Of a stretch of 60,875 nt of DNA, positions 10,946 to 49,236 are shown in pieces. Under the pieces are notes generated by a model. It saw only the letters and a list, made by a program, of their open reading frames with translations, made no database searches and was not told the DNA's origin. Position 1 is the stretch's first letter, and every line of letters starts with the position of its first letter. Origin of the DNA: a virus; the IMG/VR virus record IMGVR_UViG_3300043395_000730, positions 1 to 60,875 of that record; one strand, 5' to 3'. The translations under genes and the position numbers were made by a program.

Positions 10946-10967
10946 GCCCTCCAATCGGAGGGTTTTT
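10946..10967 (+). terminator. rho-independent terminator
   Basis: Perfect stem CCCTCC/GGAGGG with loop AATC followed by six T. Separates the basic-protein unit from groEL-groES. Confidence 0.9.
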
Positions 10968-10980
10968 TGTTATTTATTAT

Positions 10981-10990
10981 TATATTTGTG
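10981..10990 (+). promoter_or_regulatory. -7 promoter element upstream of groEL
   Basis: TATATTTGTG, one mismatch to TAnnTTTGnA, just after the terminator and 16 nt before the groEL ATG. Confidence 0.6.
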
Positions 10991-11005: not shown

Positions 11006-12574
11006 ATGGTAGTAAAACATGTTCATTTAGGCCAAGAAGGCCAACAAAAGCTCAAAAAAGGCATCAAGACGATCGCTGGAGCAGTCAAAAGTACATTAGG
11101 TGCGCGAGGGCGCACGGTACTAATAGAGTCAGAGCACCATGTGGGTGGTATAACAGTAACAAAGGACGGTGTAACGGTCGCTAAGTCGATAAACTTGTTT
11201 GATCCGACTGAGAACTTGGCTGTTATTATGATGCGCCAGGCTGCTGAGAAGACAGCAACGGTTGCTGGTGACGGTACAACCACATCTATAGTATTGGCTG
11301 AGGCTCTTATCAACTCTTCTGACGTACACTTATCTGACACAGACAACGTGACTGAGGTTATAAGAGAGATAAACGACCTAACAAAGGACGTTGTGGCGTA
11401 TTTAGACAAGAAAAGTAAAAAGGTAAAGGGTAAAAAGTTGGTTGATGTAGCCACTATAAGCGCAAACAACGACAGAGAGATCGGTAAGATGATCGCTAGT
11501 GCGTTCAACGAGGTTGACGTTGTTACTGTTGAGAACAGTATGACAAGCAACACATATGTCGAGATAATAAAAGGTATGAAGATCGACCGTGGAATGACGT
11601 CACCTTACTTTATCACAGACCAAAAGAAGCAAGAGTGTGTTCTTGACAACCCATACGTGTTGATATGCGATCACGAGATAAATAACTTGATATCTATCGA
11701 GAGTATATTAAAGCACTGCGTTATGAACCAAAAGCCGTTATTGATTATTGGTACGTTAGGCCAGAACGCTATGAACACATTAAACTTAAACGTGGCTAAG
11801 GGGCAGATCAAGGCGTGTAACATTCAGCCACCATCGTTTGGGTACCGCACAAAGGACCTTATGGAGGACATAGCTATCGCTACAGGCGGTACGTTCTTCT
11901 CTGAGTCTACTGGTGACGATTTGTCATTAATAACTGTAGCTGACCTAGGTCGTGCGAACCGTATTGTTGTGAGTAAGGGTATGACGGTATTTATGCCAAA
12001 CGCTGAGAGGGCTGATGCTATCGACACACAAGTTAGTCAGCTAAAGGACTCTAGATCTGAGATGTCATCCGACAAGGAGTTGCTTGACTTTACGAACGAG
12101 CGTATTGCAAACCTATCTGGCGGTGTTGGTGTTATATATGTTGGTGCCTTAAGTGACATTGAGCAGAAGGAGAAGAGAGATCGTATTGACGACGCTGTGT
12201 GTGCTGTAACTGCTGCACTAGAGGAGGGTATACTTCCAGGTGGAGGTATAGCGCTAGTTGACGCTGCATCATTCACACTACGTGGAGACAGTACTGCTTG
12301 TAAGATAATGCGTGACACTGTGATCGCTCCGTTCTATCAGATATTAATTAACGCAGGTAAGGACCCAGAGGAGATAAAGGCTAATATGTTGCCAATAGAG
12401 AACGAGGGGTATGACGTTAAGAACGAGCAGTACGGTGACATGTTAAAGCTTGGCATCATTGATCCAGCGAAAGTTACAAAGAACGCACTGTTAAACGCAG
12501 TGTCTGTAGCTACTACTATAATGAGCACAAATGCAATAATAACAAATGTAAGAGCAGATGAGAGTATTAAATAA
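11006..12574 (+). CDS. groEL: GroEL-type 60 kDa chaperonin, phage-encoded
   Basis: 522 residues from the ATG at 11006 (MVVKHVHLGQEGQQKLKKG); the upstream ATG-like extension is rejected because the promoter lies inside it. Chaperonin signatures are intact: T-L-G-A-R-G near the N-terminus, V-A-G-D-G-T-T-T (catalytic Asp near residue 87), S-G-G-V-G-V-I-Y-V-G-A, and R-I-D-D-A-V-C-A-V-x-A-A-x-E-E-G-I-L-P-G-G-G with the Asp equivalent to E. coli D398. Slightly shorter than the bacterial length of about 545, lacking a Gly-Met-rich tail. It would form an ATP-driven folding ring for phage or host proteins, with the co-chaperonin encoded next. Confidence 0.95.
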   Translation: MVVKHVHLGQEGQQKLKKGIKTIAGAVKSTLGARGRTVLIESEHHVGGITVTKDGVTVAKSINLFDPTENLAVIMMRQAAEKTATVAGDGTTTSIVLAEALINSSDVHLSDTDNVTEVIREINDLTKDVVAYLDKKSKKVKGKKLVDVATISANNDREIGKMIASAFNEVDVVTVENSMTSNTYVEIIKGMKIDRGMTSPYFITDQKKQECVLDNPYVLICDHEINNLISIESILKHCVMNQKPLLIIGTLGQNAMNTLNLNVAKGQIKACNIQPPSFGYRTKDLMEDIAIATGGTFFSESTGDDLSLITVADLGRANRIVVSKGMTVFMPNAERADAIDTQVSQLKDSRSEMSSDKELLDFTNERIANLSGGVGVIYVGALSDIEQKEKRDRIDDAVCAVTAALEEGILPGGGIALVDAASFTLRGDSTACKIMRDTVIAPFYQILINAGKDPEEIKANMLPIENEGYDVKNEQYGDMLKLGIIDPAKVTKNALLNAVSVATTIMSTNAIITNVRADESIK

Positions 12575-12821
12575 ATTCCTACTAGTAAAGAGACAGCAAG
12601 ACAGCAACAACATGTCAACGACTGGTTTCATGTATGGAGCTGACGATATGAGGGAGTTACGGTACCAAAAGGCTACCGTAATCTCTTTCGGTCAAAATGT
12701 AAGCGGTGTTGAAGAGAGCAGTGAGATACTGTTCGACAAGGTAGCTGGACATGACGTATTGATAGACAACGAGAGGTTAACTGTCATTCAAGAAAAGGAC
12801 GTTGTTTGCGTTCTTCGTTAA
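12558..12821 (+). CDS. groES: GroES-like co-chaperonin
   Basis: 87 residues overlapping groEL by 17 nt. Matches the GroES pattern: V-L-N-K-F-L-L-V-K-R at the start, a mobile-loop region (S-T-T-G-F-M-Y-G), K-A-T-V-I-S-F-G, I-L-F-D-K-V-A-G-H-D-V, and L-T-V-I-Q-E-K-D-V-V-C-V-L at the end. Forms the lid of the GroEL cage in the known system. Translational coupling implies matched expression. The 3' end overlaps an antisense gene by 38 nt. Confidence 0.85.
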   Translation: MRVLNKFLLVKRQQDSNNMSTTGFMYGADDMRELRYQKATVISFGQNVSGVEESSEILFDKVAGHDVLIDNERLTVIQEKDVVCVLR

Positions 12822-13278: not shown

Positions 13279-13283
13279 TTTAT

Positions 13284-19629: not shown

Positions 19630-20190
19630 ATGAAGTCGCCATATTGCTTTATCATCAAAGCTGTTGATGGGAGGCGATATGATAACATCAGAAATTACGA
19701 AGGTAAAGAGTTTATCATAAGTTCATCCCAGGAAGATCATAAGGTAGCAAACAGATTCGCTACCGTTATATCAACACCTATATATTACAACGGTCCAATA
19801 GAACCAGGCGACATTGTTGTCGTCCATCATAACGTGTTTAAATTTTATTACGACATGAAGGGCAGACAAAAAAGCAGTTGGCATCACTTGACTGACGATC
19901 TGTTTATCGTAGAGACCGATCAAGTATATCTGTATTCCAGAGATGGAGGCAGATGGGCTGCTCCGTCACCATTTTGTTTCATTAGGCCAATACCTTCTGA
20001 AGACAAAATATTCAGCTCGACATCTGGGCTTGAAGAACTATGGGGTGAGTTGGTATTTAAGAACGAAGAAATGACAGAAGTCACCGAGGGTGACATCGTA
20101 TCATTTACTCCAGAGAGTGAGTATGAGTTCAGAATAAATGAAGAAGTTCTTTACAGAATGTACAATAGGAATATATGTCTAAAAAAATAG
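19630..20190 (+). CDS. hypothetical beta-rich protein (186 aa)
   Basis: MKSPYCFIIKAVDGRRYDNI; repeated beta segments with I-E-P-G-D-I-V-V-V-H-H-N-V-F and G-D-I-V-S-F-T-P-E-S-E-Y-E-F. The I-E-P-G-D-x-V-x-V-H-H-x-x-F pattern is also seen in head-to-tail or virion proteins of related phages with no proven role. Located just before the terminase genes. Confidence 0.65.
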   Translation: MKSPYCFIIKAVDGRRYDNIRNYEGKEFIISSSQEDHKVANRFATVISTPIYYNGPIEPGDIVVVHHNVFKFYYDMKGRQKSSWHHLTDDLFIVETDQVYLYSRDGGRWAAPSPFCFIRPIPSEDKIFSSTSGLEELWGELVFKNEEMTEVTEGDIVSFTPESEYEFRINEEVLYRMYNRNICLKK

Positions 20191-20443: not shown

Positions 20444-22660
20444 ATGGAGCTTTACACACTAGTTACCGATCACATACATAAGACTGCATTCATAACAAAG
20501 AACGCAAAGAAGTCTTGGACATATGGTTATCACCCCGAGTATGACATCGTGGTGATATCAAGAGATGGTACTATAGGTGAGATATATGACATCAATGGAA
20601 TAAAAATAGCTATACCTTCAGAACCAAAATCCCTATCAAAGAAAGATAACAAGTGGGTAGCAGAGGAATATCCATCCGAACTTCAGAAGATAAAGACTGT
20701 ATTTGACTGGAACAGAAAGGACAACACATTTAAATCAAAATATGTAGACTACATAGAGCAAGAGTTTGACAGAAGGGATTACGGTCATTGGTTTATAAAT
20801 AACGGTAAACCAACCTATATAACTGGAACACACTACATGTATTTACAATGGACAAAGATAGATATCGGTCTTCCAGAATTTAGGGAATCAAACAGAATAT
20901 TCTACATATACTGGGAAGCATGCAAGGCTGACAATAGATCTTTTGGTATGTGTTACCTAAAGAACAGACGTTCTGGTTTCTCGTTTATGTCTTCTGCCGA
21001 GGTGTGTAATACCGCAACATTAGCAAAAGATTCAAGGGTTGGTATACTGTCAAAGACTGGTAGTGATGCTAAGAAGATGTTTACCGATAAGGTTGTTCCT
21101 ATTGTTAGGAATTATCCTTTCTTCTTTAAACCAATACAGGACGGTATGGATAACCCGAAGACTGAACTAGCCTTTAGGGTTCCAGCAAGTAAGATCACTA
21201 GGAGAAATATGGATGAAGAAAAGACCGAAGATATTGAAGGTCTTGACACAACTATTGACTGGAAGAATACTGCTGACAACAGCTACGATGGTGAGAAATT
21301 GCTAATGCTTGTGCACGATGAAAGCGGAAAATGGGAAAAGCCTGAGAATATATTAAATAACTGGAGAGTAACAAAAACGTGTCTACGTTTAGGTGCAAGG
21401 GTTGTAGGTAAGTGTATGATGGGGTCAACATCAAACGCTCTACCAAAAGGCGGTCAGAATTTTAAGGATTTATACTATGATAGCAGTACATCCAAACGAT
21501 CAGCCAATAATCAAACAAAGAGTGGCCTGTATTCATTGTTCATTCCTATGGAGTGGAATGTTGAGGGATATATAGATGAATTTGGATGGCCAGTACTAAC
21601 GGATCCTAAAAAGGCAGTGAAAGGTATAGATGGAGAGATGATAACGCAAGGCGTTATTACTTGGTGGGAGAACGAGGTAGCTGCACTCAAGTCTGATGCT
21701 GATGCATTAAATGAGTTCTATAGACAGTACCCAAGAACTGAGTCACATGCATTTAGAGATGAATCTAAGCATTCTTTATTTAACCTAACCAAGATCTACC
21801 AACAGATAGATTACAACGACTCACTTATAAAAGAAAAGTTTTTGACAAGAGGTTATTTTCATTGGAAAAACGGAGAGAAAGACACAGAGGTAATATGGAC
21901 TCCAGATCCGAAGGGAAGGTTCATTGTATCTTGGATACCTAGTCAAGAAATGCGTAACAGAAAAATAATAAGAAATGGTAAATTTTATCCAGGTAATGAG
22001 AGCCTTGGTGCTTTTGGGTGTGACCCTTATGATATCTCTGGTGTTGTTGGTGGGGGTGGCTCTAACGGTGCTCTTCATGGCGTTACTACGTTTCATATGG
22101 AACAAAATGTGCCGTGTAACGAATTCTTTTTGGAGTACATAGCTAGACCTCAGACAGCTGAGATATTTTTCGAGGATGTTCTAATGGCATGTGTGTTTTA
22201 TGGTATGCCTATACTTGCTGAGAACAATAAGGCTAGATTGTTGTATCATTTTAAGAATAGAGGCTACAGAGCATACTCTATGAACAGGCCAGACAAACAG
22301 ATGTCAAAACTATCTAAAACTGAGATAGAGATAGGCGGTATACCTAACTCATCAGAAGATGTTCGTCAAGCACACGCCTCTGTAATCAATACATATATCG
22401 AGGAGCACGTAGGTTTTGATAATGAGGGTACTTATAGAGAGCAAGGTGTTATCGGGTCTATGTATTTCAACAGAACTTTAGAGGATTGGGCTAGGTTCAA
22501 CATAACAGACAGAACAAAACACGATGCCACGATTAGTTCTGGTTTAGCCCTTATGGCTATTAAGAGATATATGTTTATACCAGAGAGAAAAGAATCAAAA
22601 ATAAGTATTAAATTTGTAAAATACGATAATCGTGGAAGCAGAAGCGAAATAATAAAATAA
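20444..22660 (+). CDS. terL: terminase large subunit
   Basis: 738 residues, the DNA packaging motor. ATPase part: Walker A-like K-N-R-R-S-G-F-S-F near residue 175, Walker B L-L-M-L-V-H-D-E near residue 286. Nuclease part (RNase H-like): G-A-F-G-C-D-P-Y-D-I near residue 524, L-A-E-N-N-K near 590, and a late D-A-T-I-S-S-G-L-A. This variant with K-N-R-R-S-G is typical of crAss-like and related Bacteroidota podoviruses. Ends at the ATG of the portal (TAATGG overlap). Confidence 0.92.
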   Translation: MELYTLVTDHIHKTAFITKNAKKSWTYGYHPEYDIVVISRDGTIGEIYDINGIKIAIPSEPKSLSKKDNKWVAEEYPSELQKIKTVFDWNRKDNTFKSKYVDYIEQEFDRRDYGHWFINNGKPTYITGTHYMYLQWTKIDIGLPEFRESNRIFYIYWEACKADNRSFGMCYLKNRRSGFSFMSSAEVCNTATLAKDSRVGILSKTGSDAKKMFTDKVVPIVRNYPFFFKPIQDGMDNPKTELAFRVPASKITRRNMDEEKTEDIEGLDTTIDWKNTADNSYDGEKLLMLVHDESGKWEKPENILNNWRVTKTCLRLGARVVGKCMMGSTSNALPKGGQNFKDLYYDSSTSKRSANNQTKSGLYSLFIPMEWNVEGYIDEFGWPVLTDPKKAVKGIDGEMITQGVITWWENEVAALKSDADALNEFYRQYPRTESHAFRDESKHSLFNLTKIYQQIDYNDSLIKEKFLTRGYFHWKNGEKDTEVIWTPDPKGRFIVSWIPSQEMRNRKIIRNGKFYPGNESLGAFGCDPYDISGVVGGGGSNGALHGVTTFHMEQNVPCNEFFLEYIARPQTAEIFFEDVLMACVFYGMPILAENNKARLLYHFKNRGYRAYSMNRPDKQMSKLSKTEIEIGGIPNSSEDVRQAHASVINTYIEEHVGFDNEGTYREQGVIGSMYFNRTLEDWARFNITDRTKHDATISSGLALMAIKRYMFIPERKESKISIKFVKYDNRGSRSEIIK

Positions 22661-26656: not shown

Positions 26657-28084
26657 ATGGCTGGTACATTACAAGCGAGTCCTGGTGTAGCAATTACACC
26701 TAGCTCAGTGAAGGCTACGTTGCCTTCAAACTACATTACAAACTTTGATTTCTTGAATCAGTATCTTCCTGATACTTACGAGCAAGAATTCGAGCGTTAT
26801 GGAAACCGATCTATCGCATCTTTCTTGCGTATGGTTGGTGCTGAACTTCCTTCAAACTCTGACTTGATTAAGTGGGCAGAGCAAGGACGTTTGCATACTA
26901 AATACACTGGATTAACATTTGGTGCTATTTCTTCTGGAACTCAAGTTTTCACATTGCCTTCTGGTAGCTGTAACTTTAGAGTAAACCAAACAGTATTCCT
27001 ATCTTCACAGCAAGTTTCAGCTGAGTCAGCAAAAGCTATCATTACTAATGTTACAACTTCTACTTTTACTGTAGCTTACTATGATAATGCTTTTAATTCT
27101 ACTTCACCTTTTAGTGGTTCAACAACAGCTGTAACAGCATTTGTTTACGGTTCTGAATTTGCTAAAGGAACAAGTGGAATGGCTGGATCATTGGAAGCTC
27201 AAGATTTATTCTTTGACGTTAAACCAATCATCATCAAAGACAACTACACTGTATCTGGTTCTGATATGGCTCAAGTTGGATGGGTTGAAGTTACTACTGA
27301 GAATGGTGCTACAGGTTATTTGTGGTACATGAAATCAGAGCATGAAACTCGTTTACGTTTCGAAGATTACCTTGAAATGGCAATGGTAGAAGGTGTTCCT
27401 GCTGAGTCTACTTCTGGTGCGGCTTCTTGGACAGGATTAATTCCTACTCCAGTTGTAGCTCCAGCAACTACTGGTTCTGCTGGTACAAAAGGATTGTTCT
27501 ACGAAATCGAAGACAGAGGAAATGTATGGGCTGGTGGTAATCCATCTGCATTGTCTGATTTTGATACTATCGTGCAACGTCTTGACAAGCAAGGAGCTAT
27601 CGCTGAGAACGTATTGTTCTTAAACCGTCAATTCTCTTTCGATATCGACGATATGTTGGCTGCACAAAACTCTTACGGAGTTGGTGGTACATCTTACGGA
27701 TTGTTCGATAACAGCGAAGATATGGCGTTAAACCTTGGATTCACTGGATTCAGAAGAGGTTATGAGTTCTACAAGACTGACTGGAAATACCTTAACGATG
27801 CTACTCTTCGTGGTGGTTTAGTTGGTGGTGCAGTTAACGGAGTTCTTGTTCCTGCTGGTACAATGAGTGTATACGATCAAGTTCTTGGTAAAAATGCTCG
27901 TCGTCCGTTCTTACACGTTCGATACAGAGCTTCTGAAACTGAGAATCGTCGTTACAAGACTTGGATGACTGGTAGTGCAGGTGGTGCAGCTACAAGCGAC
28001 CTAGATGCAATGCAAGTTAACTTCTTGTCTGAAAGAGCACTTTGTACTCTTGGAGCTAACAACTTCTTTATCTTCAAAGGATAA
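26657..28084 (+). CDS. major capsid protein
   Basis: 475 residues, HK97-fold type by context and composition. Contains Y-L-P-D-T-Y-E-Q-E-F-E-R-Y-G-N-R-S-I-A-S-F-L-R and a late H-V-R-Y-R-A-S-E-T-E-N-R-R-Y-K-T-W, strings matching major capsid proteins of crAss-like and related Bacteroidota phages as I know them. Bounded by its own terminator downstream, consistent with high expression. Confidence 0.88.
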   Translation: MAGTLQASPGVAITPSSVKATLPSNYITNFDFLNQYLPDTYEQEFERYGNRSIASFLRMVGAELPSNSDLIKWAEQGRLHTKYTGLTFGAISSGTQVFTLPSGSCNFRVNQTVFLSSQQVSAESAKAIITNVTTSTFTVAYYDNAFNSTSPFSGSTTAVTAFVYGSEFAKGTSGMAGSLEAQDLFFDVKPIIIKDNYTVSGSDMAQVGWVEVTTENGATGYLWYMKSEHETRLRFEDYLEMAMVEGVPAESTSGAASWTGLIPTPVVAPATTGSAGTKGLFYEIEDRGNVWAGGNPSALSDFDTIVQRLDKQGAIAENVLFLNRQFSFDIDDMLAAQNSYGVGGTSYGLFDNSEDMALNLGFTGFRRGYEFYKTDWKYLNDATLRGGLVGGAVNGVLVPAGTMSVYDQVLGKNARRPFLHVRYRASETENRRYKTWMTGSAGGAATSDLDAMQVNFLSERALCTLGANNFFIFKG

Positions 28085-38127: not shown

Positions 38128-41100
38128 ATGAACGATAAATTACAACAACTTTATAATCTATACAAGAGTAAAGGTTTAATTAATACTACAGATTTTAATA
38201 CATTCGCTTCTGCAAACAGTCAGCAAATCCAACAACTATATAATCTTGGAAAGAAAAATGGCCTGTTTAATACTACAGATCTTAATACATTTAGTTCTGC
38301 ATTTAGTCCTCAACAAAAATGGAGACAAGTAACTGAGAAGGAAAGTGCAGGTAGATTGAATTACAGAAAAGATGATTTCAGAACTTGGGACATAGTAGAA
38401 GAGACTCAGAAGGGAATGACCAAGGAGGAGAGAAAGAAAACTGGGTTTGATTATACGCCAGAACAAATAGCTGCTGGTAAAAAAGCTGTTGCTATGGAAG
38501 AGGCTCCAGTTATTGAATACTCTGACCTTAAACTGAGAAGAGGTAAGGATGGCGTTTTCTACAAGGTAGAAGGTAATAATTGGTACGAGGTGGCATTTCC
38601 TAGAGATATGTCAAAAAATATTATAAACGAAAGTGTAGTAAGTCTTGAGGGCTCTGATCTTTATAAAATAAATGATCCTAAAAAAGTAGAGAGCTTAAAC
38701 ATTGAGTTTGGCGAAAAAGTAAAATTACCTAATGCTGGTTTTGATACCGATCAAAAATTAATCAAGTCTGGCATAGATACAAAAATACCATCTGTTCTAA
38801 ACAAAGCAGTCAAACCAGAGGATGATCCGTATGATGTTTTTGGAGGATGGGACGATAATACTAGAGGTCTTAGATTTAGAAAGGACGATTATTCTAATGT
38901 TTGGCTGCAAATCAAACCAGGTGTTGATTCAGGATGGTCTGTAGTTACAGAAACCATGGCTAAAGAATTAAACAAGCGTTATGGTGGTAAGTATGGTTCT
39001 GTGCCTAAACAAGCTGAGAACTTGACTGATTACCAGATATTAAACAAGACGTACGGACAAGAAGGTGGTTCTGGAGTCTTAAAAAGAGAACTACTTCCAG
39101 ATGGAGAGCCTACTTTTGGACTTCCGAAATCAGTAGAGAATGCAGGTTGGTTTCAAACACTTTACCCTCAGACAATGATGGGTCAAGTTGTAAATGCTCA
39201 AGAGGCGAGAAGAAGAGGTATGACATCTTTTGATGACAAGGTACATAGATTCGTATCGAATAATAATATAGCTAGACTTGAAGAAGAAGAGGCTGTAAAA
39301 ATGCTTACAAATGAGTTCGGTAGATATGGTTTTGAGTTTATAGAATCTGGAGTTAATGACGAGATGATCGTAAGAACAAAAGATGGCTTACGTGAAGTAG
39401 TAATAAATCTTGATACTGATGATCTAGGAGAAAATATAAGACTTCAAGATTTCTTAATAGTTAATATGGACCCATCTGCTTACGAGGCAGGTGATCAAAA
39501 ATACGCAGAGCTTATAAATAGAGACAGACGTCTCATTTATTCTAATAATGGTAGCAACAGTGCATCTCTTTATAAAGACCTAAAAGAGTTATTTAACGAT
39601 GAGGACTATAAAATATGGGCTCAAAATTTACCTTACGGTGAACTAGAACAAGAGGTAAACTATAGGATAGGTGAGTATAGAAGCTTAATGAATAAACCTG
39701 GAGTTAATAGCTCTGAAGTATTTAAAGATATGGAGACGTTTAAAAAATCTCCTATGTATCAACAATATCAAAAAAATAAGAAAGAGGCATTTGAGCTCGA
39801 AAGAATGAAAATGCAGTCACTGTATGATGAAGTTAGATTAGATCCAGGACAAAATTCAAGAGCTAGACAAAAGGTTAGAATGTTCTTGTCTGATAAATAT
39901 TTAGACAAAGCAAAAACTGAGTACAATGCAATGCTAAATGATATCAATCAGTCTGCTAAATTTTTAAAGACTAGATATGATGAATATCATAATGAACTTC
40001 AGAAATTAAACACGTCAAACTTAACGCCAGAACAAATAAGAGTTAAGAAAGAACAACTTGACAAAATGGCGTTACAGCTGGATGTAGATCGATCTAACTT
40101 AATTAGAAGACAAAAGGCCGTTACAACTGAAGCCAAGCAGCTTGAGTATTTAACAGGTAAGTATGTTGTTGACGTGGCTAAAGAAGGTGGATTTATTGGT
40201 GGGTTGATGAATAGCTTCTCAGACGGTATATCAAAAATGATAAAGACAGGAGATGTTGTTGGAAGGTTGCAAGCAGAGACAAAGGGTTCTCAGATTGCAG
40301 ACAACATGACAGAAGAGGAAAAGAGATACTATAAAACAAAAGGATATTCATTAGAAGAGATTAAAATAGCAGAGGCTAATAAAGCTTGGAAGGAATCAAA
40401 AGAAGATCTTTCTAACAGGATGAAGTCCGCTATTGGTGATCTAGCTACAACTAAACAGTACCAACAGTCTGAAGATAGAGGTATTGTTAGTAAAGCATTG
40501 TTTGGTCTTGCAGAATCTCTTCCAGCAATGGCTACATCATTTATTAATCCATACGTTGGTTTTGGATCATTGTCAGCTCAAGCATATTCATCTTTAGAGG
40601 ATGAGATGTTAAATGATCCAGATTTTGAAACAACGTCACTTACAGAGATGAACTTAATAGCATTACCATATGCTATGGCTATGGGAGCCTTGGAAAAGAT
40701 TGGTCTTAGTTCAGCTATGTCTAAAAACCCTCTTGCTAAGTCTCTTATAATGAAGTCTATACAAGGGGCTGTTAAAAAGACAACAGGTAAAGGATCAGCA
40801 GAACTTTTACAAAATGTACTAGACAAAGAGATCAAGTCGAATATGGCTAAGTTTGGAATAAGGATAGTCGGTGGTGCACTAACCGAGGCTGAAACTGGGG
40901 CTACTCAGTCATTGGTACTTGATATTGGATATAAGAGCTTGATCAACGAAATAAAAAAAGACGATAGACTAGCAAGCGAACTAACTGGAGGTGAGTTTTT
41001 TGATACCCCAGATAGCTTTATGGATGGTCTAAAGATGGTTATAGAGGATGGTATAGCTGAAGGTATTGGCGGTATGGTTATGAGTGGATTTGGATCTATG

Positions 41101-44100
41101 TCTCAAAAGGTTATAAATGGAAATATATCTCTTTATGATAATGAAGATGTTGATTTTTTAAAAACTGTTTCAACTGACAACGAGCTAAGAAAGATGATTG
41201 TGATAAAACTTAAGAGCGATATGCTTACTGGTAAAATTACAAAGTCTGAAGCTGAGAAACAATTGAACGCTCTTGATAAGGTTGGTGCTATATTTAATGC
41301 TATGCCTGACAACCTAAGTGTTGAGGACCAAGTTAAGTCTGTAAACCTTATGTCTGAAAAGCAAAGACTTGAAAAAGAAATTGACGGCAAGGATCAATCT
41401 CTTGTTGCCGCTCAAAAGGAAAGAATAACAGAGATTGATAACGAACTACAAAAAATTAGTAAAGATGCCTTTCAAAAGCAAGCAACAGGTGAAGTTCCTG
41501 TACAGCCAGAAGCCAGAGTTGGCGAAGAAGTGGAGGGAAGAAAACCCGAAACAAAACTTGAAGAAGTTACCAAAAAAGGTCAAGAAGGTGTAGTACAAAC
41601 ACAAGTTCCTAGAAAAAAAGGTTGGCAAAATAGTGTTGTTAAAAAAGAAGAATCAACTACTCCATCTGGAGATAAAGTAACTACATATAAGGCTTATGCT
41701 GTAAATGAAAATGGCAAAGAGACTAATATGGGAACAGGTATCTTAACTACTATAGGAGAAATTGCACCTTTAGTAAAAGGAACTGAAGGTGAATTAATGT
41801 TTTATGATGAAGATGGTAATTTAAAAGAAGATCCTAATGCTGAACTTTATATAACAAAAACAATAGAGGGAACCAATCAAGATGGAAGCTATCAACAGAG
41901 GGTTACAGTAGTTGCTAAAGGAGATTTAGAATTTAATGGAAGGATACAAGCTGATTTTACTACAAATAAAAATGTTGTAGTAGGCGAATCATCTTATAAA
42001 TCTAATTTAACAACTAAACAACAACAAGAAGTAACAATAGATAAACCTGTTATTGCTACAAATACAACGGCCGAACTTGATAGAGTTAAGTCTGTTGATA
42101 TGGAGACTGAAGATGGTGCTACGTTTAATATAGACGGAACTAAGTACGAAGGTGGTGGTTTGGTTGTTCCTATTGTTAGTGAGAACACTACTGTTGAGGA
42201 GATCACTCCAGAGATGATATCTGACTTTGTTGAAAAACATTCAAGCAAAATTGGAGATCAAAATACAGTTAAGGTTGGTATATATAAATTCCCTAACAGT
42301 AACAAGGTATCGATAGACCTAAATATCGTTGCTCCAGAGTCATCAAGACAGCAAGCCATTGAGTTTGCAAAAGCTGCTGATCAAGAGTCTCTGTTTGATT
42401 TATCTACATTTGAGAATGTAAAGACTGGCGGTACTGGAGTTAATCCTACACAATTTACTGACGAACAATTTAAAGAGATAGCTAAAGCTCTTAACGAAGG
42501 AAGAACTCCTAGTTTTGCAGCACCTACGCAACAAAACCTAGTAACACTTGAGAATGTAGAAGAGGTTGCAGACAAAAGAACAGCCACTGCCATTAAGTTG
42601 GTATTGAACGCTCTTCCTGACGTTAAGATATATATTCACAAGACAAACGAAGAGTACTCTGCCGCAATAGGTGAAGAGGCTGAAGCTGGAGACAGAGGAG
42701 CATACGATACACAAGAAGGAGCTATACACATTAATTTAGCAGCTGGAGGTAACGCTCAAACTGTTTTCCATGAGGCTATCCACCATGCATTACTAAAGAA
42801 AGGTATGGACAGTGGAGCTATACTTGATTTGGCTAATGGTCTTAATAGAATAATTACTGACAAGAAGTTAAAGAAAAGGTTAAGTGATTTCATATCTCAA
42901 TATGAAACATCTGACCAAGCTGAAGAGTATTTGTCAGAACTAGGGGCCATAATGGCTGAAGCTGAGATCGAACTAACTACAACAAAGTTCAATCAGTTTA
43001 AAGCGCTTATCGCTAGAATATTCCAAAAGTTAGGACTACCTAAATCTATGGTTCCTTTCTTGAATGCTATGAATTCAGAGAACGCTGTTGACTTTATTAA
43101 TAGTTTGACTAAATCTTTGAGGACTGGTGAAAACATAATGACTGACGGTTTTCAATCAACTATTAATCCAACTAACAAAATAAAGAAACAGGTTGAAGTT
43201 AAAGAAGGATATAAGCTTTCTTATGTTAAACAGTCTGATATAATAGATATACAATCATTAATATCTGACATTGCTTCAAATGATCAAAATGTTTGGTTCT
43301 GGGTTGCTGATCAACTTGGTAGAGGATTTGTTGAGGATGATGTTATAGATGGAAAACACTATTTAGATGCTGGGCCTTCATTTGCTCTTGATCCTAAAAA
43401 TAGAGAGAGAGGTATAATATGGGCGTCTGGAGCTAATCCAAGGACACTTCAAAATAATATAAATAAAAGTGATTATATATTCATTATAAGTGGATCGCCT
43501 CAAAAATCAAAGTTATTTAATAAGACCGTATCAAATCTAGTAAGATCTAGAATAGAAAAAAGTGTTGATTTCGATACATTTAAAAAATCACTTATAGAGG
43601 CTAATGCTCCAAAAGATATAACGTCAATACTTGAAAAATATAACAGTTATGATGATTTATTTAATGGTCCAGATAGAAAAGCATTTTTAATAGCTATAGG
43701 CAATCAAGCAAATAAGAAGGCTACTAAATCTAAACAATTACTTGAATCATATAATGCTTTTGTTGATTATGATTCATTGAGAGATGATTTCTATAGAGAG
43801 AATGGATTTGAAATGGGTGATATAATGCTTGTATTGAAGCCTACAGGTGTTGGTGAAAAATCAGATCATTCGACATATGAGAATAATATTTTAGGTGAAG
43901 TTGTAGGTGTTCCAGATTCTATAATAAATTCTTATGATATCCTTCCAGAAGAAACTAGAAATAAATACAAAGAAGATATAAGCAGAGTTCAACAACAACA
44001 AGTTGTGGCTCCTTATGGTATGGGTGTTAGTAAAGTTAAAAAACACAAAGGTGAAAAAATAACTGCACCAGTAGCTGGAAACAAGTTGTTCAATGAGCCT

Positions 44101-47100
44101 TTAAAGGATGCTGAAAATATAGCTAGATCTTACATGCAATCTATCGGTATGGAATACGTGCCAGTAGAAAAGATAACAAAACTAGATGAAGATCTTTCAA
44201 AAAGAATATCTGACGCTTACGATCAGATGGAAAATAATCCAAACGATCCGAAGGTAAAGGCTGCTTATGAGGCTATGGCTAAGGAAACATTAGATCAGTA
44301 TGACGCTATAGTTAAAGAAGGCTACAATGTTGAGATAAATAATAACGAGCCTTACTCCAACTCTGAGGCTATGATAAAAGACCTTAAGGATAATAAGAGG
44401 ATGAAAATATTCTCTACAGAATCTGGTTTTGGAGATGAGCCTATAACTGAAGAGCAGAGATCTGAAAATTTATTATTAAAAGACTCTGGAAGAAAGGATG
44501 TAAATGGTGAGACTTTATTGATCAATGACGTGTTTAGATTTGTGCATGACTTCTTTGGTCACGCCAAACTAGGCAACAGTTTTGGTCCAGTAGGAGAAGA
44601 GAATGCTTGGAGAGTTCACTCTGAGATGTATTCTCCAGAAGCTAGAAAGGCTATGACATCTGAGACAAGAGGTCAAAATAGCTGGGTTAATTTTAGTGGT
44701 GTAAATGACGCTGCATTCAAGAAGAGAGATAAGGCTAGAGAACTTCGTAAAGAAGGTAAGACAGAAGAGGCTGATAGATTGGTAGGTGAGGTATATGAGG
44801 AGATGAAATTTGCCGATCAAAAGGTTGGCATATTGCCAGATTTTGCTATTGAAGAGGGGACTAGGTTTAAAAAACAGAAAGATAATACTGGATATAGATC
44901 TGGGGATTTAATAAAAAAAGCAGAAACTAAAGATAAATTCGAAGGAAGTGATAGAAGCACTGGTCATTTTGGCACTGGATTTTATTTTTTTGGAACTAAA
45001 AACCAAGCAGATCAATATGGTGAACGAGCTACAAGTACTATTGATTTAGATGGATATAATTTAGCAAAAGGAACTATTGAACTTCATGATTTATTAAAAG
45101 ATATCAATAACAATTCTATAGGTAAAAATAAAAATATAGATAAATTAAAATCTAGAATTGAAAATTTATTAAATTACCTAGGTAAATCAGAAGTTACCAA
45201 ATTAAGTCGCGATTATTCTGAACTAGAATTTAAATCTTATGTTCAAAGTGAAATAAATCAAAAAAATAAAATAGAATCAATAATAAATGAAATAAATAAT
45301 AATAATGTTGATTCTCCATCAACAGTAGTTATGAAATCGTTGGGATTTGATGGTGTAGATTCAAGAGGTACAGATTTAGATAATGCTCAATATGGAAGTG
45401 TAGTATATTCAATAAAACAATTCAAAAAACAAAAACCAACATCCAAACAAGAGGCCATCCAAAAGGCCAAGGATAAGTACGAACTGTCTGTAGAGAAGAG
45501 AGGTAATTCTCACGAGCAAGGCGTAGCCGCTGCTCTTGGTGACTTGCAAAAGTCTAATTGGTTTGCAAACGCTGACGATACAGCTAGAGAAGATGCAGTT
45601 AGAGAGATCAAGGCTTTCTTTGGTGAGAAGATTAAGAAGGCTCCATCTGTTGCTAAGATTTTAGGTAAACCAAAACCAGAGACGCAAACAAAAACCGTTG
45701 ATGCCTTACGAAAAGAATTCTTTACTGCTTGGAACAAAGCGTCAAGAGAAGCAAAGGCCGATCTAAATTCCAAAAGAAAAGCCATCGGAGCTATCATCAA
45801 GTCAATGGTCCGATCTGGCAAAATAACTACCAAACAAGCAGCCGTTATAACAGACAGGGCTAGCAGTATAAATCTTGAGAACCCAGTAATTGTACAAAGA
45901 TTCTTGGACTACGTTAGTAAGGTATTTGCTGACGCTAACTATCAAGAGAAGTTAAGCAACGCTTTCTCTACTAGAAAAGCGATAAGAAGATTAACTAAGT
46001 CAAACAACCAAGCAGAGGTTATAGGGATGGCTAAGGCATTCCTAAATATAGACCCATCAATGGTTGAAGACATAGACACATACAACGAGATAGCTGAGTC
46101 AATCAAAAATGCTATGGCTCCATCTGTTGTAAGAGGAGAGCAAGTTAAGTTCAAGCAACCAGCCAATATAGCTGACGTGAATGAATACACGATGGAAGAG
46201 CTGTCAAAACAAGAGGAAATTAAAAAGGACCAATTGTTGGCTGAGTATGACTACCTTAAGGATGCTGGTTTGATATCTAAAGACATGACTCTAAATGAGA
46301 TAAGAAAGATCATAGAGGATATGAAGTCTACAGATACTGATATCAACGATGACGTTAAAGACTTTGTTGAGAGAAGACTAGATATGATGCTTGGTATTGT
46401 AGAGTCTATTATTAGAACTGGAGTCAATCCAATCACTGGAGAACCTATGGAGATATCTGATAAAAACAAAGATATCCTAAAAGCTATAATGAAGATGGAT
46501 CTAAAAGAACTTGATACAAGAAGCTTGATCTATCTATCTGAATCTGTAGATAACTTCCTAAATAACGGAATAACAAGCGGTCTTGAGGCTAATGTACAGT
46601 CATATGTTGGAGCTATGAAAGTTAAGGCTCTTGTAAATGCTGGCGTTAAATCTGTTGGTATAAAAACAAAAGCTTCTAAGATAGCATCTACTGAAATACT
46701 TAGCATACCTTTATTATTTGAAAAATTATTTAGAGGTACTACTATTGGTACTAGAATAATGAGTGATATGGGATTGTTGGATATGGTTAACGGCAAAAAT
46801 AAAGCTGAACTTATATACAACAAAATACTTGAATCGTACACAAAGCAAGATTTCTACGGAAAGGACTTTATGACTCAACAGAACATCATAGAAAGAGGTA
46901 TGCTTGCATATCTTATGAGAAATGTTAATGGTGATAACGCTCAAGTTAAAGCAGAACTAAACAGGAGAATTGACGCTATATCTGAGAGTATTAAACAACT
47001 AAAAGAAGGAAATAGCGATGAGCAGAAACTAGCTGAAATGTATGAGAATGCATTCTCTAAGTTAAAAGTAAATTCTAGAGACATTGATATCATAAGAGCT

Positions 47101-49236
47101 AACTCATCTAAGTCAAACAGAGAAGCTGTTGACTGGTGGGTAGATCAATGGAAACAACACTATACAGATTTATATGATGTCAGTTTGTCTGTTTACAACA
47201 CTATGTTAAGTAGTGATATAAACTATACTCCAGATAAAATGAAGCTTATGTCTTCTAAGTCACAAGATGATGACATAACTAGCTCGGATAGCGGATTTGT
47301 ATCATCTCTTGGGTACACAGATACAAAAAAAGCTGGTGTGTTGATGGAAAATGTTAGAAAGAAACCAAAGAATAGATACGTTGATCTAAACTTTGATATG
47401 AATAACGCTAACTCATTAAGAAATGCACTTGTTGACATAAATACAGCTGCCGCTATTAGACAAGTAAAAGGCTTCATGGACTCTAATAACTTTGATAAAT
47501 TAGCTGGAGATGAGTCTTCATTGATAAAGTCAAGAGTGAACTCTTACGTGAAAAGAATGAAGGGTAAGAGGATGATACCTAGAAGTAGCGCTGATGACAT
47601 TATGAAGTATTTTAATGCAATAGCTAAGGCTGGTACCATTAGAGCTCTAGGTGGAGTTGGTTCTGCGATTAAGCAGTTCTCTCCTGTAATAAATACATTG
47701 CTAAATGCAGGTAGATTTACAAGTTTAACTCCTAACAGTAATGCTTGGATCGACAGACTTGGCATGCCTATATCTAACCGTGGTATAAAATCAGAAGCTA
47801 ATATTGATACTATAGACAAGAGGGTTAACGTTTTGGCTGATTCAGCTGTGGGTAAAGTTTATGATGGTGTGGGTAAGATAGGTGACATGTGGTTGAAGGC
47901 ATTAATACAATCGCCAGATGCTTATGTAGCAAGGTCTTCATTTATTACTTACTACTTAAAGAGTTTAAGGGACCAAGGTCTTAGCACTAAGATAGATTGG
48001 AACAACCACGAGGTAAATAAAAAGGCAGCTGAATACGCTCAAATGCAAGTTGACAGACAACAGAACGTGTCTGATCCTTTACTAACTGGAGAATTATTTG
48101 CAACTGAAGATGCTACTAAAAAAATGATCACGAAGCTTTTCATGCCATTTACATCATTTGTTTGGAACCAGAGAGCTAGGATGATAAATGATATGCAAAT
48201 ATTAGGATCTAAAGTATCATCAAAGGAAGATAAGATAATAGCTATGAGATCACTAGCTGCTCTTCCAGCAGAGATTGTAGTATTTAACTTATTAGGTGCA
48301 GCAATAAGAAAAACAATAGACGCTATAACAAATTACTTCTACGGAGAAGATGATGATGAAGAGGAAGAAGTATTGTTCTATGTGTTTGGAATGAAAGTCA
48401 CTGAAGATGATGTTAAGGAATTTAAGATGCCTATCAAAAACTTATTGGTGGATTTATTCTCACCTCTTCCTGGCCTAACAGATGAATTCTTAGTTACTGG
48501 ATTTAATAATCTATTTGAAATGTACCCACTAGTTGGTGACGATGAGATAGCAGAGTTGGTTAAGGCTGAAAATGATATGAGAATAGCCAATGGAGATAAA
48601 GTAATGACAGAAAAACAAGAGGCAGAATTTATTGAAGAGGAGAAGAAAAAGAGAACATTCCAACTGTATGAAAATATGGAATCTACTGGATGGGAAAGAT
48701 ATATACCTGGTGCTCCAGGAGTTGCATTAAAAACATATAGCGAATTAAAAGACGCTATAGACTTAGCAATGACTGGCAAATATGAAGATGAGTATCAAGG
48801 AAGAAAATCAACAAAATATATATCAGAGGAAGATAGGAAAAAAGTTGCTTACGGATTATTCTTCCAAATACCACAAGCTTTAGGATTGTTGCCTCGTGAG
48901 GCTGGTCAGATTCCAAATAAAGGTATACGTAACATTAAAAAGAGATCGTATACAGAGAATCAGAAAACAAAGATGGAAGAGGTTGAAAAATTGACTAATC
49001 GTCCTATCGGTAAAATTGAGAAAGTATTAATTAGTAAAAACTCAGATCCTAAGAAGATTGCTATGGAAATGAAAATGATAGATAAGCTTGGAGGATTTGA
49101 TGAAAAACAGGAAGCTGAGTACGCAAAGCTTAGAAGATCAATTAGTAAACCTAATATAAGATTTGCTCAAATGATTAAGGGAGGAATGACGGCAGAGGAT
49201 ATAATAAGAAGAATTGCCGAGATAAGAAAAAGATAA
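38128..49236 (+). CDS. giant polyvalent virion protein (3702 aa)
   Basis: Residues 1-60 hold two copies of a Q-Q-L-Y-N-L-x-K-x-x-G-L-x-N-T-T-D repeat. Helical regions follow. Near 1548 is H-E-A-I-H, a zincin HExxH metallopeptidase motif in F-H-E-A-I-H-H-A-L. Near 2140 is R-F-V-H-D-F-F-G-H-A-K-L-G-N-S-F, a hallmark of large polyvalent phage proteins. Near 2278 G-H-F-G-T-G-F-Y-F-F-G-T-K-N-Q-A-D-Q-Y-G resembles ADP-ribosyltransferase-type folds. The C-terminal third is helical with an S-F-V-W-N-Q-R-A-R-M region and a hydrophobic stretch near 3385. No RNA-polymerase D-x-D-x-D motif was found. Probably packaged and ejected, with several enzymatic modules. Confidence 0.85.
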   Translation: MNDKLQQLYNLYKSKGLINTTDFNTFASANSQQIQQLYNLGKKNGLFNTTDLNTFSSAFSPQQKWRQVTEKESAGRLNYRKDDFRTWDIVEETQKGMTKEERKKTGFDYTPEQIAAGKKAVAMEEAPVIEYSDLKLRRGKDGVFYKVEGNNWYEVAFPRDMSKNIINESVVSLEGSDLYKINDPKKVESLNIEFGEKVKLPNAGFDTDQKLIKSGIDTKIPSVLNKAVKPEDDPYDVFGGWDDNTRGLRFRKDDYSNVWLQIKPGVDSGWSVVTETMAKELNKRYGGKYGSVPKQAENLTDYQILNKTYGQEGGSGVLKRELLPDGEPTFGLPKSVENAGWFQTLYPQTMMGQVVNAQEARRRGMTSFDDKVHRFVSNNNIARLEEEEAVKMLTNEFGRYGFEFIESGVNDEMIVRTKDGLREVVINLDTDDLGENIRLQDFLIVNMDPSAYEAGDQKYAELINRDRRLIYSNNGSNSASLYKDLKELFNDEDYKIWAQNLPYGELEQEVNYRIGEYRSLMNKPGVNSSEVFKDMETFKKSPMYQQYQKNKKEAFELERMKMQSLYDEVRLDPGQNSRARQKVRMFLSDKYLDKAKTEYNAMLNDINQSAKFLKTRYDEYHNELQKLNTSNLTPEQIRVKKEQLDKMALQLDVDRSNLIRRQKAVTTEAKQLEYLTGKYVVDVAKEGGFIGGLMNSFSDGISKMIKTGDVVGRLQAETKGSQIADNMTEEEKRYYKTKGYSLEEIKIAEANKAWKESKEDLSNRMKSAIGDLATTKQYQQSEDRGIVSKALFGLAESLPAMATSFINPYVGFGSLSAQAYSSLEDEMLNDPDFETTSLTEMNLIALPYAMAMGALEKIGLSSAMSKNPLAKSLIMKSIQGAVKKTTGKGSAELLQNVLDKEIKSNMAKFGIRIVGGALTEAETGATQSLVLDIGYKSLINEIKKDDRLASELTGGEFFDTPDSFMDGLKMVIEDGIAEGIGGMVMSGFGSMSQKVINGNISLYDNEDVDFLKTVSTDNELRKMIVIKLKSDMLTGKITKSEAEKQLNALDKVGAIFNAMPDNLSVEDQVKSVNLMSEKQRLEKEIDGKDQSLVAAQKERITEIDNELQKISKDAFQKQATGEVPVQPEARVGEEVEGRKPETKLEEVTKKGQEGVVQTQVPRKKGWQNSVVKKEESTTPSGDKVTTYKAYAVNENGKETNMGTGILTTIGEIAPLVKGTEGELMFYDEDGNLKEDPNAELYITKTIEGTNQDGSYQQRVTVVAKGDLEFNGRIQADFTTNKNVVVGESSYKSNLTTKQQQEVTIDKPVIATNTTAELDRVKSVDMETEDGATFNIDGTKYEGGGLVVPIVSENTTVEEITPEMISDFVEKHSSKIGDQNTVKVGIYKFPNSNKVSIDLNIVAPESSRQQAIEFAKAADQESLFDLSTFENVKTGGTGVNPTQFTDEQFKEIAKALNEGRTPSFAAPTQQNLVTLENVEEVADKRTATAIKLVLNALPDVKIYIHKTNEEYSAAIGEEAEAGDRGAYDTQEGAIHINLAAGGNAQTVFHEAIHHALLKKGMDSGAILDLANGLNRIITDKKLKKRLSDFISQYETSDQAEEYLSELGAIMAEAEIELTTTKFNQFKALIARIFQKLGLPKSMVPFLNAMNSENAVDFINSLTKSLRTGENIMTDGFQSTINPTNKIKKQVEVKEGYKLSYVKQSDIIDIQSLISDIASNDQNVWFWVADQLGRGFVEDDVIDGKHYLDAGPSFALDPKNRERGIIWASGANPRTLQNNINKSDYIFIISGSPQKSKLFNKTVSNLVRSRIEKSVDFDTFKKSLIEANAPKDITSILEKYNSYDDLFNGPDRKAFLIAIGNQANKKATKSKQLLESYNAFVDYDSLRDDFYRENGFEMGDIMLVLKPTGVGEKSDHSTYENNILGEVVGVPDSIINSYDILPEETRNKYKEDISRVQQQQVVAPYGMGVSKVKKHKGEKITAPVAGNKLFNEPLKDAENIARSYMQSIGMEYVPVEKITKLDEDLSKRISDAYDQMENNPNDPKVKAAYEAMAKETLDQYDAIVKEGYNVEINNNEPYSNSEAMIKDLKDNKRMKIFSTESGFGDEPITEEQRSENLLLKDSGRKDVNGETLLINDVFRFVHDFFGHAKLGNSFGPVGEENAWRVHSEMYSPEARKAMTSETRGQNSWVNFSGVNDAAFKKRDKARELRKEGKTEEADRLVGEVYEEMKFADQKVGILPDFAIEEGTRFKKQKDNTGYRSGDLIKKAETKDKFEGSDRSTGHFGTGFYFFGTKNQADQYGERATSTIDLDGYNLAKGTIELHDLLKDINNNSIGKNKNIDKLKSRIENLLNYLGKSEVTKLSRDYSELEFKSYVQSEINQKNKIESIINEINNNNVDSPSTVVMKSLGFDGVDSRGTDLDNAQYGSVVYSIKQFKKQKPTSKQEAIQKAKDKYELSVEKRGNSHEQGVAAALGDLQKSNWFANADDTAREDAVREIKAFFGEKIKKAPSVAKILGKPKPETQTKTVDALRKEFFTAWNKASREAKADLNSKRKAIGAIIKSMVRSGKITTKQAAVITDRASSINLENPVIVQRFLDYVSKVFADANYQEKLSNAFSTRKAIRRLTKSNNQAEVIGMAKAFLNIDPSMVEDIDTYNEIAESIKNAMAPSVVRGEQVKFKQPANIADVNEYTMEELSKQEEIKKDQLLAEYDYLKDAGLISKDMTLNEIRKIIEDMKSTDTDINDDVKDFVERRLDMMLGIVESIIRTGVNPITGEPMEISDKNKDILKAIMKMDLKELDTRSLIYLSESVDNFLNNGITSGLEANVQSYVGAMKVKALVNAGVKSVGIKTKASKIASTEILSIPLLFEKLFRGTTIGTRIMSDMGLLDMVNGKNKAELIYNKILESYTKQDFYGKDFMTQQNIIERGMLAYLMRNVNGDNAQVKAELNRRIDAISESIKQLKEGNSDEQKLAEMYENAFSKLKVNSRDIDIIRANSSKSNREAVDWWVDQWKQHYTDLYDVSLSVYNTMLSSDINYTPDKMKLMSSKSQDDDITSSDSGFVSSLGYTDTKKAGVLMENVRKKPKNRYVDLNFDMNNANSLRNALVDINTAAAIRQVKGFMDSNNFDKLAGDESSLIKSRVNSYVKRMKGKRMIPRSSADDIMKYFNAIAKAGTIRALGGVGSAIKQFSPVINTLLNAGRFTSLTPNSNAWIDRLGMPISNRGIKSEANIDTIDKRVNVLADSAVGKVYDGVGKIGDMWLKALIQSPDAYVARSSFITYYLKSLRDQGLSTKIDWNNHEVNKKAAEYAQMQVDRQQNVSDPLLTGELFATEDATKKMITKLFMPFTSFVWNQRARMINDMQILGSKVSSKEDKIIAMRSLAALPAEIVVFNLLGAAIRKTIDAITNYFYGEDDDEEEEVLFYVFGMKVTEDDVKEFKMPIKNLLVDLFSPLPGLTDEFLVTGFNNLFEMYPLVGDDEIAELVKAENDMRIANGDKVMTEKQEAEFIEEEKKKRTFQLYENMESTGWERYIPGAPGVALKTYSELKDAIDLAMTGKYEDEYQGRKSTKYISEEDRKKVAYGLFFQIPQALGLLPREAGQIPNKGIRNIKKRSYTENQKTKMEEVEKLTNRPIGKIEKVLISKNSDPKKIAMEMKMIDKLGGFDEKQEAEYAKLRRSISKPNIRFAQMIKGGMTAEDIIRRIAEIRKR

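Follow-up and report, generated by a model that had tools for sequence, protein, structure and literature searches.

A phage GroEL/GroES pair with degenerate ring-ring contacts, a roofless lid and a Cpn20-like companion protein in a Bacteroidota podovirus lineage

The viral DNA analysed here (IMG/VR record IMGVR_UViG_3300043395_000730, 60,875 bases, referred to in its entirety as the window) encodes a GroEL in which the ATPase core is fully conserved but the residues that join the two rings of E. coli GroEL have degenerated throughout its phage family, and a GroES, encoded by an overlapping gene, that lacks the roof hairpin. We lean, with modest confidence, towards reading these genes as a group I chaperonin system of the phage's own, with a single-ring GroEL, a cognate roofless GroES, virion proteins as substrates and a tandem GroES-fold protein as a probable Cpn20-like lid. 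Phage-encoded GroEL is as such an already known kind, as GroEL is reported from 36 putative genomes of Bacteroidetes phages (PMC5332604) and the chaperonin cpn10 is described as a core gene of the Pervagoviridae (PMC8776804). New are the decay of the inter-ring contacts, the altered groove together with a roofless lid, and the second co-chaperonin-like protein. In the literature searched, which included few subscription journals, decayed ring contacts combined with a cognate roofless lid were not found described, nor was a tandem GroES protein in phages, a search on the latter subject yielding only a review on chloroplasts. The features concerned are the following.

10947..10968, + strand: hairpin and T run in the sequence, probable terminator of the gene before, separating it from groEL/groES
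10981..10988, + strand: TATATTTG, a match to TAnnTTTG, 17 nt before the groEL ATG
11006..12574, + strand: groEL, group I chaperonin of 522 aa (open reading frame, Pfam, phrog), no GGM tail, degenerate ring-ring contacts
12558..12821, + strand: groES, co-chaperonin of 87 aa (open reading frame, Pfam, phrog, fold), no roof hairpin, mobile-loop FMY
19630..20190, + strand: Cpn20-like protein of 186 aa (phrog, model, fold match), two GroES-like domains, the N-terminal one by fold only
20444..22660, + strand: terminase large subunit (phrog_6681, E 1.4e-174), used as co-occurrence marker
26657..28084, + strand: virion structural protein of 475 aa (phrog_13704, E 1.7e-107), major capsid candidate by position
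38128..49236, + strand: giant protein of 3702 aa (open reading frame)

The groEL frame starts with the ATG at 11006 and overlaps groES by 17 nt, and the preliminary description of a phage-encoded GroEL and GroES pair is borne out by the profile scores. GroEL matches Pfam Cpn60_TCP1 (E 4.3e-52, residues 23-514) and phrog_5725 ‘chaperonin groEL’ (E 9.7e-129), and GroES matches Pfam Cpn10 above the cut-off (E 1.1e-7) as well as phrog_3188 ‘co-chaperonin GroES’. The GroEL is indeed short and devoid of a Gly-Met tail, as had been noted, being 26 residues shorter than that of E. coli, mostly through loss of the tail. Hairpins with T runs are visible upstream of many related groEL genes too. The motif TAnnTTTG, the -7 element of Bacteroidota promoters, is found no more than 60 nt before groEL in 73 of the 75 related loci, as compared with 6% of shuffled upstream sequences, and in 71 of the loci its distance from the start codon is 15-18 nt. 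The upstream hairpin and T run, combined with this motif before groEL, suggest that the pair probably constitutes its own transcription unit. The promoter-like motif TTATATTTG is also present in additional exact copies elsewhere in the window, at 13283 (+), 19158 (+) and 50679 (-).

A scan of viral contigs recovered 272 GroEL relatives, the best 80 of which are 59-97% identical to the window protein. The overlapping groES is retained at 78 of these 80 loci, the other two ending at a contig edge. When the search instead starts from the terminase (44 of 80 terminase loci, on records of at least 9 kb), groEL is found in 12 of the 44 records, most of the others being short; it is present in all six records that extend 16 kb or more beyond the terminase on its upstream side, in nine of 13 that extend 10 kb or more and in none of 11 with less than 4 kb. 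In this phage group groEL appears to be stably maintained, and four comparisons of the window with close relatives (dN 0.017-0.062 versus dS 0.52-0.99) indicate purifying selection and rule out a pseudogene. The earlier statement that few phages encode a GroEL and fewer a pair thus needs a qualification: it stands overall, as GroEL matches occur in 262 of 50,697 records of a phage collection, partly bacterial contaminants (60 of the 262, spread across the ranking, were inspected by listing), but within this group the pair is stable, and it is known in elemo phages. By GroEL the nearest named phages are the podovirus ctfjg026 (MW202828), at 48.5% identity, and the elemo phages of Flavobacterium, at 40.2%; both have a groES and a giant structural open reading frame as well.

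Functional sites of GroEL were compared between a family set of 76 sequences (75 full-length members of the 80 loci plus the window, with L070, L077, L078, L080 and L081 cut by contig ends) and a cellular set of 44 (43 of 80 cellular loci plus E. coli). The ATPase residues T30, G32, K51, D52, G53, G86-T91, D398 and G414-G416 (E. coli numbering), and with them D87, GDGTTT and GGG, are kept in 76 of 76 family members, with an entropy at these sites of 0.01 bits, whereas a Gly-Gly-Met-type tail occurs in none of the 76 as against 42 of the 44 cellular sequences. In E. coli the rings are reported to touch through K105-A109, R452-E461, S463 and V464, and also through K105-D435 (PMC5941174, PMC7174398, PMC5575113, PMC3326522, PMC2741606). 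Ranked by gain of entropy among 509 sites, in 22 non-redundant family members relative to the 44 cellular GroELs, these positions come 2nd (435), 7th (452), 8th (463), 21st (109), 26th (105), 46th (464) and 113th (461, a site occupied by D or N that has stayed rather constant among the members). When seven equatorial sites were drawn at random, none of 20,000 draws attained the observed mean gain, be it against the 44 cellular or against 19 Bacteroidota sequences, at similar mean identities within the groups (0.69, 0.66 and 0.75). Both inter-ring salt bridges together are found in 0 of 76 family members versus 40 of 44 cellular GroELs, and the window itself has V105, D109, G435, Y452, D461, E463 and E464. 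The host-derived GroEL of phage SJC03 keeps K105/D435 and K452/E461. The preliminary description had both ATPase and contact motifs kept; this is correct for the former but only in part for the latter, as two radical changes are fixed at the apical site and the ring-ring contacts have not been retained. Judged by these alignments the E. coli inter-ring contact residues have lost constraint in the family, from which a single-ring chaperonin is predicted; a quadruple change at 452, 461, 463 and 464 is described as the classical route to a single-ring E. coli GroEL.

Among the apical residues checked (Y199, Y203, F204, L234, L237, L259, V263 and V264), two have been replaced in all 76 family GroELs, by L234E and V263N. 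F204 is likewise kept in all, position 237 is I or L, position 259 is L, M or V, and Y199 and V264 vary. L234, L237 and V263 are reported to be part of the substrate site, the first two also touching GroES (PMC7289027), and a single-ring GroEL is described as stuck with normal GroES but working once lid binding is weakened (PMC5575113). L234E would fit such a weakened lid binding, and could even weaken it too far. The predicted fold of the window GroES resembles 1wnr, a Cpn10 (Z 11.9, rmsd 2.0, 76 residues), with residues 16-25, the mobile loop, modelled at pLDDT below 50. This loop carries a G and the tripeptide LLL, LIL, LIM, LLM or FMY in 78 of 79 GroES sequences, one row falling outside the pattern and FMY marking the close group of the window, and the loop segment is one to three residues longer than in E. 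coli. The roof segment, on the other hand, has 10 residues in 79 of 79 sequences as against 19 in E. coli, nine thus being missing. T4 gp31 is also reported to be without roof loops and to enable folding of a 56-kDa capsid protein (PMC6318259), and the roof hairpin is accordingly no strict requirement for a GroES/Cpn10. FMY loops co-occur with M199 and with M or L at 259 in GroEL, a co-variation of lid loop and groove that was dropped as a claim since it is confounded with kinship.

The product of 19630-20190 (186 aa), encoded directly upstream of the terminase, matches phrog_13932 ‘co-chaperonin GroES’ and no Pfam family above the cut-off. A model built from 51 aligned sequences (of 71 homologues) reached a mean pLDDT of 90.1 and a pTM of 0.82, and its best PDB match is chain R of 7ekq, ‘Cpn20 co-chaperonin subunit’ of Chlamydomonas (Foldseek E 1.9e-5; by VIA-align Z 10.4, rmsd 4.1, 159 residues, over residues 1-186). 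Residues 108-186 align to GroES structures at Z 8-10, and the C-terminal half matches the GroES profile at E 2.5e-7 (score 42.0 versus at most 14.6 in 60 column shuffles). For the N-terminal half the profile match is weak (E 0.0044, 20 columns, score 20.4 versus a best of 15.8 in 60 shuffles), and a comparison of the two halves with each other does not rise above shuffles (18.8 versus a best shuffle of 19.5), the N-terminal half as modelled being GroES-like by fold only. Matches to quinone oxidoreductases and alcohol dehydrogenases (Z 4-6) were taken as reflecting the shared GroES-like barrel only. The chloroplast Cpn20 is described as two GroES domains in tandem that form seven-domain rings with the one-domain type (PMC5780408). 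A homologue of the tandem gene is present at 69 of 80 terminase loci; of the 11 loci that lack it, only one has over 700 bases of sequence before the terminase. In the phage collection the protein occurs in 77 records (68 elemo, seven Cellulophaga, MW202828 and Panino), and these groups, when the lists are compared at group level, are also among the GroEL matches.

The tandem protein probably represents an additional lid subunit of the Cpn20 type or a derivative of one. It is also quite possible, if somewhat less probable, that it has become a structural or packaging protein no longer acting with GroEL: its gene adjoins the terminase within the structural module, the C-terminal domain is without a clear mobile-loop tripeptide, and the invariant residues H66, N68 and F70 are not GroES-like. 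Against this, the fold match to Cpn20 spans the full protein and the gene travels with groEL, being found in 19 of 20 near-full-length groEL records (one lacks it) and in 12 of 12 groEL-positive terminase records. Conversely, groEL is present in 11 of 15 records of at least 36 kb chosen by the tandem gene, and missing from the other four. Two further observations concern proteins of this type. The near-invariant segment VHHNVF (residues 65-70) of the N-terminal domain is foreign to GroES and might bind a metal or a partner. The Flavobacterium phage MaF61 encodes a 187-aa ‘putative chaperonin’ right before a divergent phage GroEL (L178, 912-1475), of a size expected for a double GroES; membership of this protein (ORF64) in the tandem family is unsupported (hhalign E 0.022).

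In the proposed mechanism GroEL and GroES would be co-expressed from a single transcription unit under a promoter of its own, and the phage GroEL would bind and hydrolyse ATP and be capped by its own GroES. It would most likely work as a single seven-subunit ring, in which a second ring may be dispensable for ejection of the lid because the groove changes L234E and V263N should weaken lid binding. The roofless lid, as in T4 gp31, could provide a bulky substrate with additional space or with an opening; virion proteins near the size limit, the capsid protein first, are the most likely substrates, and the tandem double-GroES protein would probably serve as a second Cpn20-like lid subunit or be derived from one. 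A more far-reaching version, in which a natural single-ring GroEL, the cognate roofless GroES and the tandem co-chaperonin form mixed seven-domain lid rings in a three-part machine dedicated to virion assembly, strikes us as rather unlikely.

The main rival is an ordinary double-ring GroEL/GroES with swapped contacts, which would simply supply extra folding capacity or stand in for a host chaperonin that is shut down during infection. One ring is not proven by the absence of the E. coli contacts, as a new interface may be formed by other residues, and the conserved ATPase core and overall family match would suit a conventional machine. Human mitochondrial Hsp60, reported to be without those salt bridges and yet to form double rings in part of its cycle, illustrates that the interface tolerates change. 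It also speaks against a single ring that position 461 varies little and that the published single-ring phage chaperonins considered here are reported to work without a co-chaperonin, in contrast to this pair. However, the contact sites vary widely inside the family (1.2-3.4 bits) rather than being fixed to new residues, unlike what a re-made interface would be expected to show, and neither salt bridge is present in 59 of 76 members (0 of 44 in the cellular set). This makes the double-ring alternative a less probable, if serious, contender, and the single ring remains the reading that we prefer.

As to the role of such a single-ring system, folding of virion proteins of capsid-subunit size is most likely, and independence from the host chaperonin, as previously proposed, is plausible. 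By analogy with T4 gp31 capsid folding is the better guess, and the 475-aa virion protein (26657-28084), by position the likely capsid protein, may be considered a better substrate candidate than the giant protein. Folding of the latter, the other substrate that the preliminary description had put forward, is improbable. Giant open reading frames do co-occur in relatives (3694 aa in elemoB, 3859 aa in MW202828), and a homologous stretch was found in 20 of 30 chosen related records searched with the first 1000 of the 3702 residues, but in related phages such co-occurrence may reflect shared ancestry. Moreover, a 56-kDa protein is already slightly above the size of the GroEL-GroES cage (PMC6318259), and a protein of about 400 kDa can therefore not be enclosed; the giant protein is not supported as a substrate.

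Host DNA contamination, a concern raised earlier, or a host gene recently taken up by the phage, has next to no probability left: the gene is host-like and some groEL matches in the phage collection are bacterial contigs, but the closest cellular GroEL (best of 80 cellular loci) is only 42% identical, far below the phage relatives given above, and in the phylogeny the family and other podoviruses of Bacteroidota are set off from every cellular GroEL sampled. In the unrooted tree (46 rows) the window, 12 relatives, MW202828, elemoB and Panino are split from all 25 cellular GroELs with a support of 99/97, the join of elemoB and Panino being an uncertain long-branch pair that is not relied on. 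Jumbo-phage rows, included in a first tree, gave very long branches and were left out of a second, the trees using 30 and 24 of the 43 cellular loci. The window GroEL is 37% identical to that of E. coli over 528 columns. The GroEL of Bacteroides phage SJC03 is nested in cellular Bacteroidales and those of Vibrio phages fall beside gammaproteobacteria; these placements indicate that groEL has been captured by phages more than once, and the lineage of the window is one of long standing separation. Some records seem to be misfiled. CAKLQH020000021.1 (L167, ‘Acinetobacter phage MD-2021a’) has groES-groEL among bacterial genes, such as a lipid kinase gene and dgkA, as well as a GroEL grouping with gammaproteobacteria, and is probably a bacterial contig filed as phage, while a Candidatus Rokubacteria contig (L209) with a GroEL grouping with Flavobacteriaceae is probably misbinned. 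In IMGVR_UViG_3300042465_004246 groEL is split over both contig ends (L265/L081), and that genome is therefore circular or circularly permuted; exact end repeats of 20-200 bases were searched for in the 60,875-base window and none were found.

The single-ring group I cycle with a lid has so far been pursued through engineered E. coli mutants and mitochondrial Hsp60. The phage family offers natural single-ring candidates with cognate lids, which have retained the ATPase, the lid and its pairing with GroEL alongside decayed ring-ring contacts; if this interpretation is true, a textbook machine would here exist in an unusual natural form. Should a tandem double-GroES occur outside plastids and apicoplasts, a small phage system would in turn allow tests of how an even number of lid domains can sit on a seven-fold ring. 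A concrete hypothesis on the retention of groEL by these podoviruses of Bacteroidota is also provided.

Among known systems, the elemo phages and MW202828 share with the window the overlapping or adjacent groEL-groES, the terminase-side GroES-like protein, the giant structural open reading frame and podovirus genomes of 60 kb. They differ in that their GroEL is only 40-48% identical and that the elemo pair is oriented opposite to the terminase. The phages EL, OBP and AR9 likewise encode group I-like chaperonins, those of OBP and AR9 being reported as single rings and that of EL as splitting into single rings with ATP (PMC7185714, PMC5934643, PMC9598537). However, these are jumbo phages, the EL protein is about 25% like GroEL, and activity is reported to proceed without a co-chaperonin, whereas the window has an adjoining groES, whose presence at 78 of 80 loci argues against a function of that type here. 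Like T4 with gp31 and gp23, as described, the window phage has a lid without roof loops and with a somewhat longer mobile loop, but T4 uses the GroEL of its host while the window encodes the barrel too. Human Hsp60/Hsp10 is similar in that the GroEL inter-ring salt bridges are absent and single rings of Hsp60 are reported active; it differs in being cellular, in keeping other ring-ring contacts and in forming footballs. Finally, the chloroplast Cpn10/Cpn20 set is described as combining one single-domain and one two-domain GroES-type protein, as the window would by predicted fold, although the similarity in sequence is restricted to the C-terminal domain of the tandem protein, which belongs to a phage instead of a plastid and for which binding to GroEL and a part in mixed lid rings are predictions.
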